Made by a program: the position numbers and the translations under genes
Origin: Pontibacter russatus
GTDB taxonomy: Bacteria; Bacteroidota; Bacteroidia; Cytophagales; Hymenobacteraceae
NCBI RefSeq assembly: GCF_009931655.1
Contig: NZ_CP047984.1
Coordinates: 4,729,001 to 4,793,000 of the forward strand
Direction of reading: 5' to 3'
Length of the DNA stretch: 64,000 bases
Shown: positions 49,848 through 54,886 of the stretch, piece by piece
How the letters are laid out: the number at the start of each line of letters is the position of its first letter
Position numbering within the stretch: the first letter of the stretch is position 1
The notes under the pieces: model-generated
Seen by the model: only the letters and a program-made list of their open reading frames with translations
Database searches by the model: none
Told to the model about the DNA's origin: nothing

Positions 49848-51764
49848 TTAGCGCAGAAGCGTGATGGTGCCGGTACGGCGGCGGGAGGCGCCAGAGTCCG
49901 AAACAGCCCTCACCTCATAGGCATAAGCGCCTGCCGGCAGCAGTTCGCCCTGATAAGTGCCATCCCAGCCGTTGTCTCCTTCGGTGCCCTCATATATAAC
50001 ATGGCCCAGGCGGTTATATATCCGGATGGTATAGCTGCTGAAAAAGCGCCCCTTTATCTGGAATACATCGTTCAGGCCGTCCCCATTCGGGGTGAAGCCA
50101 CTGGGTATATAGAGCTGCAGGCCCTGCTCCACCAGCGCGGTGTTGGAATAGGTGCTGGCGCCGTCAGCCGCTGTGCCTCTGACCCGGTAGCGGAGTTGTT
50201 GCATCTCCTGTGGGAGGGAGCGGTCGGTGTAAGTGTTTCCGGAGGCGGGATAGCTGTGCAGCACCTTGCCATCCTCGTCGAGCAACTCCACCGTATATTG
50301 CCTGACACCATTCGGGAAGCCTTCGTATTTTGTCCATTCCAGCGAGATGGCCGCCCCAGCGTCCTGCTGCTGCGCCTGCAGAAAAATAGGGCAGGAGGTA
50401 TTGCTAAGGGCGGAGGTATTGCCGCAGGCATTGGTGAAGGCGGCGCGGTAGCAGATTTGCGCGGGTGTAGTTTCTTTATCTGTGAAGGACGCCTGCGGCC
50501 CCTGGGTGAGCGCCTCGAAAGCGCTGCCTTCCGCGCTGCGCTCAAAGCTTATCTGCCCGGCTGCCTCTCCCGGTGGCAGTTGCAGGAGCAGTTCCACCTG
50601 ATTGGCCGGGTTAAAAGTGGAGAGCAGGTACGGGGCGGCCGGAGCAACCGTGGAAACCACCTGCACCTCGCCAGCCGCTGACACCGAAACGCTGCCGTCA
50701 GCGGCGATGCCGCGCACCTCATATATATAAGGCTGGCCGCACACCACATCAGTGTCTATATATTGTTTGACGGTATTGCCCAACGTCTGCAGCAGTGATC
50801 CGTTTCTGTAAAGCTCGTAGCGCTGCGCATGGGCCATGCTTTGCCACCTGACCGTTGCCTGCTGCTCTTCAGCGGTGAACTCCAGGGCGATGGAACTGAC
50901 TGCCCTGGCATCCGGAAAGGCAGTGCCGCAGGCATCAAGAGGGCGCACCCTATAGGAGGTTCCTTCCGAGGTGTTCACGTACTGCAGGCGATGCGTGATG
51001 GCTGCTTGAGAGATGGTATGGATAGTATCGATGGTAATGTAGCCGGGACTGGAGGCACTGAGGTCCCAGCGCTGCACGATATAAGCAAGGCCGGGCTGCA
51101 GGCTCTCCAATGCTAATGCAAGTTGCCCGCTGCCTGCCTGCTCCAGCACGGTCAGGCTGCGGATGAAGGGAACAGGGGCTGCGGGCAGGGTGGTGACCCC
51201 GGTGGTGCTTTCTCCGGCACAGGCGCCCCCGGCATATACCCCCGAAACGGTTAGGGTGTATGTGCCCGGTGAGGCGTAGCGATGGGGAACCTGGCTGCCT
51301 GGCTTCGCGCCCGTCGTTTTCCCGCCATCCCCGAAATCAAGGGTATAGCTGCTGTAGTTGCTGTCTGTGATGCGGACGGAGACGGCGCCGTTGGCGCAGC
51401 TTTGGGCGGTGAAAGAGGGGGCTGGGGAGTCTTTCACCTCAAAGACAACTGATACTGTGTCGGTGAGGGTGTTGCTGCCGTAGTTCGCGATTTGCAGGAC
51501 CCGGTAGGTGCCGGGTTTGGTGTAGCTGTGCCGCTGGCTGTCGGATGCGTCCGTGATGGGCGAGCCTTTTTTATAATCAAACACATAATACTCATTCTCG
51601 TCCGGCACTTTGCCCCCGCAATCCTGAAAGGTGTATTCCTGCCCCACGCAAAGCACCGTCGCCTCCTGCCCCTGCGCGTCATATGCCTTGAAGCACTTGG
51701 TAGCGGACTGCGCCCAGGCAAAGCCAGCATATAGGAAGAGCATGATGTGCAGGAGGGGTTTCAA
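49848..51764 (-). CDS. Secreted PKD/Fn3-type protein with T9SS type B sorting domain
   Basis: A 638-residue exported protein with signal ending GFAWAQ. A PKD-like domain covers about 20-110 (GKVPDENEYYVFDYKKGSPI, YTKPGTYRVLQIANYGS), and a second PKD repeat (LDFGDGGKTTGAKPGSQVPHRYASPGTYTLTV) follows. Several Fn3-like segments come next (TVRWQSMAHAQRYELYRNG). The end SGFTPNGDGLNDVF, YNRLGHVIYEG, LLPAGAYAYEVRA is the gliding-motility-type C-terminal domain, used for T9SS export. It starts at TTG; the next ATG (51743) would shorten the signal peptide. Likely a cell-surface or adhesin-type protein. Confidence 0.9.
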   Translation of the reverse strand: MKPLLHIMLFLYAGFAWAQSATKCFKAYDAQGQEATVLCVGQEYTFQDCGGKVPDENEYYVFDYKKGSPITDASDSQRHSYTKPGTYRVLQIANYGSNTLTDTVSVVFEVKDSPAPSFTAQSCANGAVSVRITDSNYSSYTLDFGDGGKTTGAKPGSQVPHRYASPGTYTLTVSGVYAGGACAGESTTGVTTLPAAPVPFIRSLTVLEQAGSGQLALALESLQPGLAYIVQRWDLSASSPGYITIDTIHTISQAAITHRLQYVNTSEGTSYRVRPLDACGTAFPDARAVSSIALEFTAEEQQATVRWQSMAHAQRYELYRNGSLLQTLGNTVKQYIDTDVVCGQPYIYEVRGIAADGSVSVSAAGEVQVVSTVAPAAPYLLSTFNPANQVELLLQLPPGEAAGQISFERSAEGSAFEALTQGPQASFTDKETTPAQICYRAAFTNACGNTSALSNTSCPIFLQAQQQDAGAAISLEWTKYEGFPNGVRQYTVELLDEDGKVLHSYPASGNTYTDRSLPQEMQQLRYRVRGTAADGASTYSNTALVEQGLQLYIPSGFTPNGDGLNDVFQIKGRFFSSYTIRIYNRLGHVIYEGTEGDNGWDGTYQGELLPAGAYAYEVRAVSDSGASRRRTGTITLLR

Positions 51765-52025: not shown

Positions 52026-53486
52026 TTAAAAAGGATACTCCCGCAGAAACGCGATGCTGGCCTTGACGTCGTGGTGCAGCATACGGTCTGTGGCCATGAA
52101 AGGCACCTTTTCGCGGTAAGCCGCCACCAACTTCTCCAGCACCGGCGAAGACCGCAGCGGACGACGGAAATCAAGCGCCTGCGCCGCATGCAGCAACTCA
52201 ATCGCCAGCACCCGCTCCACGTTTTCCACCACCTGGTATAGCTTAGTGGCCGCATTTGCGCCCATGCATATATAATCTTCCCGGGCGTTGAAGGAGCCGG
52301 TGGAGGCGGGGGTGCAAAGCTGCCTGTTCTGGCTCACGATGGCGGCCGCGGTGCTCTGGCTTGCCAGGAAGCCTGTATTGATTCCCGGCTCCGCCACCAG
52401 GAACTCCGGCAAACCCCGCAGCCCGGACACAAGCTGACAAGAGCGCCTTTCAGAAATGCCACCAAGATTCGCCAGCGCGGTGGCCAGGAAGTCCAGCGCC
52501 AACTCCAGCGGCTGCCCATGGGAAATTCCGCCTGAGAGCACGGTGTCTTCTTCCTGGAAAACGATTGGATCGCCGGTAACGGTGTTGATTTCTGTTTCAA
52601 CAAGCCCCGCCGTAAAGGTAATGGCGTCTTTGGTGGCACCGTGTACCTGTGGCATGCCTTGGAACGAATAGGGATCCAGCCCGTGCCGCTTCTGCCGCTG
52701 CATCAGTTCGCTTCCCTCCAGTAGCTGGCGCACCGCCGCCGCTGTCTCCCGCTGCCCTTTGTGGGGGTGCAGGCGGTGGATTAATGCGTTGAAAGTCTCC
52801 AGGCTGCCATCAAATGCATCCAGCGAAAGCGCACCAATCATATCCGCCTGCCGCGACAGTCTCTGCGCATCTAACAGCGCCAGCACCCCATATGTAGCCG
52901 TAAACTGGGTGCCGCTCAGCAACGCCAGGCCTTCTCCGGCGTTCAACGTGACGGGTTCCCAACTGAACATCTCCAGCACATGCTCGCTGGCCAGTTTATA
53001 TCCCTGAAAGCTCACTTCTCCGAGTCCGGCCAGGGGCAGGCAGAGGTGCGCCAGCGGTACGGCGTCGCCAGCGCCTGCCGAACCCTGCTGGTACACCACG
53101 GGGTACACCTCCCGGTTATAGAAGTCGATCAGGCGCTTTACCGTTTTCAACTGCACACCGCTATGCCCGTGCGCCAGCGACTGGATCTTGAGCAGCAGCA
53201 TCAGTTTAACCATATCCTGCGGCACCTCCATTCCTACTCCGCAGGCGTGCGCCAGGAGCAGGTTGCGCTGCAACTGTTCCTGGTCGGGCTGGTAAGTCTG
53301 GGTTTGGGTGCCGGTGCTATATATCGGTCGTTCCGGAGCGTTTATTTTCAGCTGCAGGTACGTGTGGCCCTGCACAATCCGCTGTTCCGCCTCCTCCGAC
53401 AGAGCCAGCGTGTGCTGCCCGCGCAGTATCTGCCCAATAGTCTCGAGGTCCAGGTACTTTCCGGATATATAATGCACATCGGGCAT
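52026..53486 (-). CDS. Histidine ammonia-lyase homologue lacking catalytic residues
   Basis: A 486-residue protein that aligns end to end with Bacteroidetes HutH-type aromatic amino acid lyases, yet most active-site residues are changed. The MIO-forming Ala-Ser-Gly is gone: GSAGAGDAVPLAH (135-147) is one residue shorter than GSxGASGDLAPLAH. The YGxNTGFG loop reads YSTGTQTQ (56-63); LLNGTQ reads LLSGTQ (Ser 191); QDPYSFRC reads LDPYSFQG (Leu 270, Gln 276); GGNFHG reads GGISHG (319-324). His 80 and Glu 403 are kept. The frame is intact, so it seems to be a maintained pseudoenzyme. It begins 5 bp after hisS, so the two form an operon. Confidence 0.85.
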   Translation of the reverse strand: MPDVHYISGKYLDLETIGQILRGQHTLALSEEAEQRIVQGHTYLQLKINAPERPIYSTGTQTQTYQPDQEQLQRNLLLAHACGVGMEVPQDMVKLMLLLKIQSLAHGHSGVQLKTVKRLIDFYNREVYPVVYQQGSAGAGDAVPLAHLCLPLAGLGEVSFQGYKLASEHVLEMFSWEPVTLNAGEGLALLSGTQFTATYGVLALLDAQRLSRQADMIGALSLDAFDGSLETFNALIHRLHPHKGQRETAAAVRQLLEGSELMQRQKRHGLDPYSFQGMPQVHGATKDAITFTAGLVETEINTVTGDPIVFQEEDTVLSGGISHGQPLELALDFLATALANLGGISERRSCQLVSGLRGLPEFLVAEPGINTGFLASQSTAAAIVSQNRQLCTPASTGSFNAREDYICMGANAATKLYQVVENVERVLAIELLHAAQALDFRRPLRSSPVLEKLVAAYREKVPFMATDRMLHHDVKASIAFLREYPF

Positions 53487-53491
53487 AGCAC

Positions 53492-54886
53492 TTATTTTAA
53501 CTGTTTGATGATTTCATCTACCGTAAGGTCCTGCTGTTCGCCCTGTTGCATGTTGCGCAGCTTCAGCTTTCCGGTAGCCATTTCTTCTGAGCCTACCAGT
53601 ATGGCGTAGGGGATGTTCTTCTGGTCGGCATAGCCCAGCTGCTTCTTCAGTTTAGCGGGCTCGGGGTATAATTCGGCGGCAATGCCAGCGTCGCGCAACT
53701 GCTGCAGCACCGGCAGGGCATATAACTCTGATTCCCTGTCGAACTGCACGAGGAGCACCAGGGTGCCTGCCTGGCTGCTGTCGGGGAATAGCTGCAGCTC
53801 GTCGAGCACGTCATAGATGCGGTCCACGCCAAAGGAGAAGCCGACACCCGACACGCCGGGCAGGCCGAACATACCCGTGAGGTTATCGTAGCGGCCGCCG
53901 CCGCTGATGCTGCCCATGCTCACGTTGTTGACCTTCACCTCGAAGATGCAGCCGGTATAGTAGGAGAGGCCGCGCGCCAAGGTTGGGTCGAGTTGTAGCC
54001 TCGGGCCCCCAGACGCATTCTGGGCAGACAAAGCCTGGCTGCTGAGCGCCTGCAGGTACTGCCACACCTCGCGCAGGTCCTGTAGGCCGCGTTTGCCTTC
54101 CTGCGTGTTGCCCAGGATGGTTTGTAGCTGCTCCAGAAGCTGTTCGTTTGTTCCTTCCAGCGCGTAGAGGGGCTCCAGCTTACCGATGGCTTCCGGCGCT
54201 ATACCCCGCTCCAGCAGTTCTTTGCGCACGCCGTCCTGGCCTATTTTATCCAATTTGTCAATCGCCACACATATATCGCCCTCGCGCCCTTTGGCACCGA
54301 TGGCCTCGGCAATGCCCGCCAGCACGCCCCGGTGGTTTATTTTGATGGTGAAATCCGTCAGCCCCAGCGTTGCCAGCACCTCGTTGATCATCTGCACGAT
54401 CTCGGCCTCGCAGAGCAGCGAGTTGGTGCCGACCACGTCGGCGTCGCACTGGTAAAACTCCCGATAACGGCCCTTCTGCGGCCGGTCAGCGCGCCAGACC
54501 GGCTGTATCTGGTAACGCTTAAAAGGGAAGGTGATGTCGTTGCGGTTCATGACCACGTAGCGGGCGAAAGGCACCGTGAGGTCATAGCGTAGTGCTTTCT
54601 CCGATATTTTGCGTGTCAGGTGCTTCGCGCCCTCGCTTATATCCTTCTCTGTGGTTTTGGCCAGAAAATCGCCGGAATTCAGGATTTTGAAGATCAGTTG
54701 GTCGCCCTCCTCGCCATATTTGCCGGTCAGCACCGAGAGCTGCTCCATGGCTGGGGTTTCGAGCGGCAAAAAGCCGAATTTCTCAAAAGTGCGCCTGATC
54801 ACCCCGAAGATATAGTTTCGCCTCAGCACGACAGCCGGGCCAAAATCGCGTGTTCCTTTTGGTATAGATGGTTTCTCTTTGCTCAT
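53492..54886 (-). CDS. hisS: Histidyl-tRNA synthetase
   Basis: A 464-residue class II synthetase that charges tRNA-His. IPKGTRDFGPAVVLRRNYI is the N-terminus, RYDLTVPFARYV and RYREFYQCDADVVG are the motif 2 area, LDPTLARGLSYYTG and GSISGGGRYDNLTGMFG are the histidine-specific and motif 3 regions, and the anticodon-binding domain fills the last 100 residues. The minus strand has TAACTTCG, a near match to the -7 consensus, about 24 bases before the ATG. Downstream lies the HAL-like gene with a 5-bp gap. Confidence 0.96.
   Translation of the reverse strand: MSKEKPSIPKGTRDFGPAVVLRRNYIFGVIRRTFEKFGFLPLETPAMEQLSVLTGKYGEEGDQLIFKILNSGDFLAKTTEKDISEGAKHLTRKISEKALRYDLTVPFARYVVMNRNDITFPFKRYQIQPVWRADRPQKGRYREFYQCDADVVGTNSLLCEAEIVQMINEVLATLGLTDFTIKINHRGVLAGIAEAIGAKGREGDICVAIDKLDKIGQDGVRKELLERGIAPEAIGKLEPLYALEGTNEQLLEQLQTILGNTQEGKRGLQDLREVWQYLQALSSQALSAQNASGGPRLQLDPTLARGLSYYTGCIFEVKVNNVSMGSISGGGRYDNLTGMFGLPGVSGVGFSFGVDRIYDVLDELQLFPDSSQAGTLVLLVQFDRESELYALPVLQQLRDAGIAAELYPEPAKLKKQLGYADQKNIPYAILVGSEEMATGKLKLRNMQQGEQQDLTVDEIIKQLK

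Follow-up and report, generated by a model that had tools for sequence, protein, structure and literature searches.

The retention of a lyase scaffold for a non-catalytic role after the loss of activity is familiar from delta-crystallin, a lyase-fold pseudoenzyme of the argininosuccinate lyase superfamily. That superfamily differs from the one considered here and does without the MIO cofactor of the histidine ammonia-lyases (HutH; PF00221, TIGR01225; Pseudomonas putida HAL, structures 1B8F and 1GKM). MIO-dependent ammonia-lyases are recognised by the Ala-Ser-Gly triad that forms MIO, and by the Tyr53 loop, Asn195, Gln277, Arg283 and Phe329 (here and below, active-site residues carry P. putida HAL numbers). 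In the mutant S153A of RxPAL, loss of the MIO serine entails loss of the prosthetic group (PMC3903478), and the Geobacillus HAL mutants Y52F, H82L, N194D and E411D have zero activity on histidine (PMC11432326). The literature that we searched contained no report of a native HutH without MIO, nor of a unit formed by hisS and hutH.

Results

A HutH homologue without the MIO triad, next to hisS

The window, a stretch of 64,000 nucleotides of the Pontibacter russatus genome, contains an open reading frame (ORF) of the HutH family that follows hisS (Table 1), begins with ATG and has no internal stop. It matches PF00221 from end to end (476.7 bits, E 9e-143, residues 12-459 against positions 1-466 of the 466 of the profile), and is therefore a full-length member of the aromatic amino acid lyase family, whereas its score against TIGR01225 (459.7 bits) lies under the cut-off of 539.15 that defines the hutH equivalog. 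The solved structures closest to it are those of HAL, and it is 52-72% identical to the HutH encoded beside hisS in its relatives within the genus. An AlphaFold2 model built from six sequences had a pLDDT of 36, too low for interpretation. An earlier note, made from the sequence alone, had described an intact frame of 486 codons, colinear with HutH-type lyases and starting 5 bp past hisS; the profile match and the coordinates agree with this description. PADLOC gave no match that would make the ORF a defence protein.

Table 1. Features of the hisS-HutH locus of P. russatus (positions in the window)
Feature	Position	Strand	Remarks
hisS, histidyl-tRNA synthetase	53492..54886	-	TIGR00442, 405 bits above the cut-off; the gene ends 5 bp before the HutH-like ORF
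MIO-less HutH-family ORF (probable pseudoenzyme)	52026..53486	-	486 codons; sole HutH homologue of the genome
Tyr53 loop remnant YSTGT, 6 residues of YGINTGFGAL deleted	53307..53321	-	alignment
MIO loop GSAGA-GDAVPLAH, Ser of Ala-Ser-Gly deleted	53046..53084	-	alignment with relatives
LLSGTQ, Asn195 to Ser (N195S)	52905..52922	-	
LDPYSFQG, Gln277 to Leu (Q277L), Arg283 to Gln (R283Q)	52656..52679	-	
GGISHG instead of GGNFHG, so without the Asn and Phe329	52515..52532	-	
STGSF---NAREDYICM, 3-residue deletion and Gln413 to Arg next to retained Glu414	52263..52304	-	alignment
Secreted protein with T9SS type B sorting domain	49848..51764	-	TIGR04131, 64 bits

The protein shares full-length colinearity and the scaffold motifs with HutH; it lacks the MIO serine, Asn195, Gln277, Arg283, Phe329 and the Tyr53 loop. 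In the Tyr53 region (IYSTGT------QTQT) most of the loop with the catalytic tyrosine is gone, and the segment that reads SIxSSNNQEDHVSM in relatives has become SF---NAREDYICM; none of the three deletions shifts the frame, and His83 and Glu414 are retained. The absence of the MIO-forming triad, and the replacement of the Asn of LLNGTQ, the Gln and Arg of QDPYSFRC and the Phe of GGNFHG, had already been pointed out in the earlier note, whose list was right as far as it went, but slightly understated the damage, since it missed the 6- and 3-residue deletions. Among columns that are invariant in intact enzymes, 34 of 85 are altered in the pocket and 12 of 123 in the scaffold (odds ratio 6.2, p 4e-7), a p value that is descriptive because the pocket motifs were picked from known active-site loops once the alignment had been seen. 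Judged from its residues, the product is almost certainly devoid of lyase activity, because single mutations of Geobacillus HAL (Tyr52Phe or Asn194Asp, for example) are sufficient to abolish it. RxPAL S153A likewise lost the MIO serine, but that protein is a laboratory point mutant, whereas the present one is a natural form with several lesions that has been under selection (see below).

A sequencing error behind these lesions can be ruled out: the genome is a single contig of 99.99% completeness, the lesions form a coherent set that leaves the frame intact, and other assemblies show lesions of a similar kind. So can a mixed tetramer with an active paralogue, as the P. russatus genome contains no second HutH-family gene.

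At least four apparent losses of MIO in one family

In a survey of 205 Hymenobacteraceae genomes, HutH was matched in 183, and the match exceeded the hutH cut-off in 170. We read the 13 copies that fall below it, which come from P. russatus, from a congener (G034) and, for the other 11, from a second genus that is probably Hymenobacter. The MIO triad is absent in all 13, and all frames are open over the region read (two low scorers, G176 and G189, sit on short contigs). The serine is replaced by Tyr or Phe in clade A (6 species), deleted in clade B (3 species) and in P. russatus, and lost with the loop in G183, G034 and G176; Glu414 is also lost in the MIO-less clades of the second genus. In clade A (loci L076, L090-L093 and L098) A-S-G has changed to A-Y-G, or A-F-G in one case, so that the triad is composed like that of a GFP-type chromophore.

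Within the genus, every copy read apart from those of P. russatus and G034 has a full active site, so that the MIO lesion of P. russatus is specific to its lineage. A loss shared by P. russatus and G034 is ruled out: their lesions differ, they are sisters in neither the HutH nor the hisS tree, and intact relatives lie between them. The gene trees put losses of MIO at P. russatus, at G034, at clade B and at clade A with G183, that is, at least four apparently independent events; G183, which groups with an intact enzyme in the tree of HutH but with clade A species in that of hisS, may or may not represent a fifth. In an order-wide search outside the family, low-scoring homologues kept the ASG triad in 14 of the 15 loci read, the motif being unreadable in the remaining one.

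hutU and hutI are missing from all MIO-less genomes of the survey

P. russatus has no hutU, hutI or hutG, and its HutH-like protein thus stands without the downstream hut pathway. The first two genes are missing in all 13 MIO-less genomes, and hutG also in G034. Conversely, hutU is found in 151 of the 205 genomes, none of which has a MIO-less copy; in one member of the genus (G031:C1:1687845-1689457) it is split between two matches that overlap, which may reflect a frameshift or the beginning of the loss of the pathway. By hand tally, the 54 genomes without hutU comprise 19 with HutH over the cut-off, 13 with a MIO-less copy and 22 without any HutH-family gene. A protein of this family is therefore not essential in Hymenobacteraceae.

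The 19 genomes that keep an over-cut-off HutH, next to hisS where read, include G002, G068, G069, G091, G106, G108, G143, G145, G164, G167, G180, G182, G195 and G200 (loci L028, L062, L074 and L101-L111); hutI was missing in all 15 of the 19 tested, with two positive controls detected in the same search. In the pairs compared, the omega of intact HutH is 0.033-0.096 in genomes without hutU and 0.029-0.055 in those with it; since the enzyme is equally constrained in both, the intact lyase seems to be useful even without histidine degradation, and one may ask whether urocanate serves as an end product. In the intact neighbours of clade A and G183 (G091, G108 and G164) hutU and hutI are already gone, suggesting that in this part of the tree the pathway was lost before MIO. 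For P. russatus the sister depends on the tree, being hutU-less G069 in that of HutH and hutU-bearing G019 in that of hisS.

The order hisS, HutH, secreted T9SS protein is kept in 19 of 19 compared loci from two genera, and the adjacency of the first two genes is kept across the family and extends to some further families within the order. Catalytically intact homologues have it equally. At L092, L093 and L094, which belong to G183 and two species of clade A, hisS is separated from the HutH-like gene by an ORF of about 1.2-1.4 kb that is unrelated to them and differs between the loci.

Purifying selection after the loss of catalysis

Values of omega were obtained with our own code for a codon model of the GY94 type (F3x4), and the branch tests presuppose an adequate alignment and moderate saturation; the pairwise omega of G034 is unusable, its dS being saturated. 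In a tree of 10 species, the P. russatus branch has an omega of 0.228 (dN 0.127, dS 0.556) against 0.062 for the background (LRT 33), about a 4-fold increase over the enzymes; neutrality (omega = 1) is rejected there (LRT 25). With branch lengths fixed, a partition fit gives 0.414 on this branch and 0.001 elsewhere for the pocket, and 0.198 and 0.074, respectively, for the scaffold. A neutral phase accounting for the excess dN would correspond to about 144 mutations, among which about 4.6 stops would be expected (probability of none about 0.01, frameshifts not yet counted).

The strongest evidence for selection is provided by clades A and B. In a tree of 26 sequences, in which intact branches have an omega of 0.075, the crown of clade A is at 0.114 (summed dS 2.17; LRT against 1 of 751) after a stem at 0.725, the crown of clade B is at 0.143 (LRT against 1 of 418) after a stem at 0.20, and G183 is at 0.228. 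Such low crown values mean that entire groups of species arose while their HutH, already without MIO, was under a constraint similar to that of the enzymes. In a smaller tree, the omega of the clade A pocket goes from 0.011 in intact enzymes to 1.07 on the stem and 0.107 in the crown, and that of the scaffold from 0.097 to 0.334 and back to 0.097. In the pocket, 22-37% of the columns are variable in the crowns without MIO and 0-5% in intact clades, with scaffold variability alike in both. Intact and MIO-less forms have 109 conserved positions in common. The pocket has lost its extra conservation, and the scaffold has kept its own.

Discussion

We think that these proteins are HutH-fold pseudoenzymes retained by selection because a second, non-catalytic role of the scaffold has outlived histidine degradation, and we would give this reading a probability of about 0.6. 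According to it, the ancestral hisS-linked histidine ammonia-lyase would have combined the lyase reaction with a second, non-catalytic function of its folded, presumably tetrameric, scaffold. The loss of hutU and hutI (and of hutG in P. russatus) would have made the reaction dispensable, presumably in P. russatus too before MIO was lost, and the active-site loops could then have been altered and shortened in frame. The scaffold, probably still a tetramer, would meanwhile have stayed under purifying selection because its second role was still useful; we infer that this role is binding, most likely of another macromolecule, rather than new catalysis. The earlier note had also proposed a HutH-fold pseudoenzyme under selection, and the branch omega below 1, the in-frame deletions and the concentration of change in the pocket bear it out for P. 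russatus, as do the MIO-less clades diversifying at an omega of 0.11-0.14.

One may object that the P. russatus copy is simply a unitary pseudogene in slow decay after the loss of hut, its open frame being due to recency and to transcription with hisS. The pathway is indeed gone, omega has risen, the gene is missing altogether from 22 hutU-less relatives, and the active site is kept in all close relatives. This last point had been named in the earlier note as a sign of a recently decaying gene; the relatives do keep the triad, but decay does not seem to follow, since neutrality is rejected on this branch. The absence of stops, the length of the three deletions and the concentration of altered columns in the pocket also argue against decay, as do the crowns of clades A and B, still constrained long after MIO was lost. 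We therefore consider slow decay unlikely, with some weight left for P. russatus alone, because its copy evolves so much faster than the enzymes.

We find the two other possibilities that we have considered very improbable. An altered pocket could have acquired MIO-independent catalysis or the binding of a new ligand, and the A-Y-G or A-F-G triad of clade A might even cyclise as in GFP; several pocket replacements are fixed in this clade, whose pocket has returned to purifying selection. Such a ring is impossible in P. russatus, where Ala-Gly alone remains, and a new chemistry common to all is unlikely, because the lesions differ from lineage to lineage (Ser to Tyr or Phe, Ser deleted, 6-residue deletions) and the crown pockets are no more conserved than the scaffold, unlike a catalytic site. 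The other possibility, proposed in the earlier note, is a sensor that would bind histidine, or a regulator of HisRS that would act on the charging of tRNA-His. It would fit the conserved proximity to hisS and the presence of His83 and Glu414 in P. russatus, but intact enzymes adjoin hisS equally, and Glu414 is lost in the clades of the second genus. Moreover, binding of histidine in the canonical pocket appears unlikely because the carboxylate and amino anchors (Arg283, Gln277, Asn195 and the Tyr53 loop) are gone, together with Phe329, and the pockets of the MIO-less clades, no more conserved than the scaffold, lend this part of the proposal no support either.

The data are most simply explained by a scaffold that binds something. 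Since selection preserves the rest of the protein after both catalysis and pathway have been lost, MIO-less HutH probably performs a further, non-catalytic task, as yet undescribed. The likeness to delta-crystallin would lie in this retention of a lyase scaffold for a non-catalytic role; MIO-less HutH differs from it in being bacterial and in having arisen repeatedly. HisRS is our guess for a partner, from gene order, and is a lead only, because intact enzymes have the same order.

Conclusion

More tentatively, and with the odds rather against it, one could propose that hisS-linked HutH is bifunctional across the family and that its scaffold role, possibly with HisRS, has outlived the lyase at least 4 times independently, so that an enzyme would have turned repeatedly into a structural or regulatory protein. 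In the literature searched we found no natural members of the MIO family that lack the cofactor, are under selection and recur in one bacterial family. Hymenobacteraceae offer living and dead counterparts of the same enzyme, in which a hidden second function can be tested directly, and a route to understanding how pseudoenzymes originate after the loss of a pathway.
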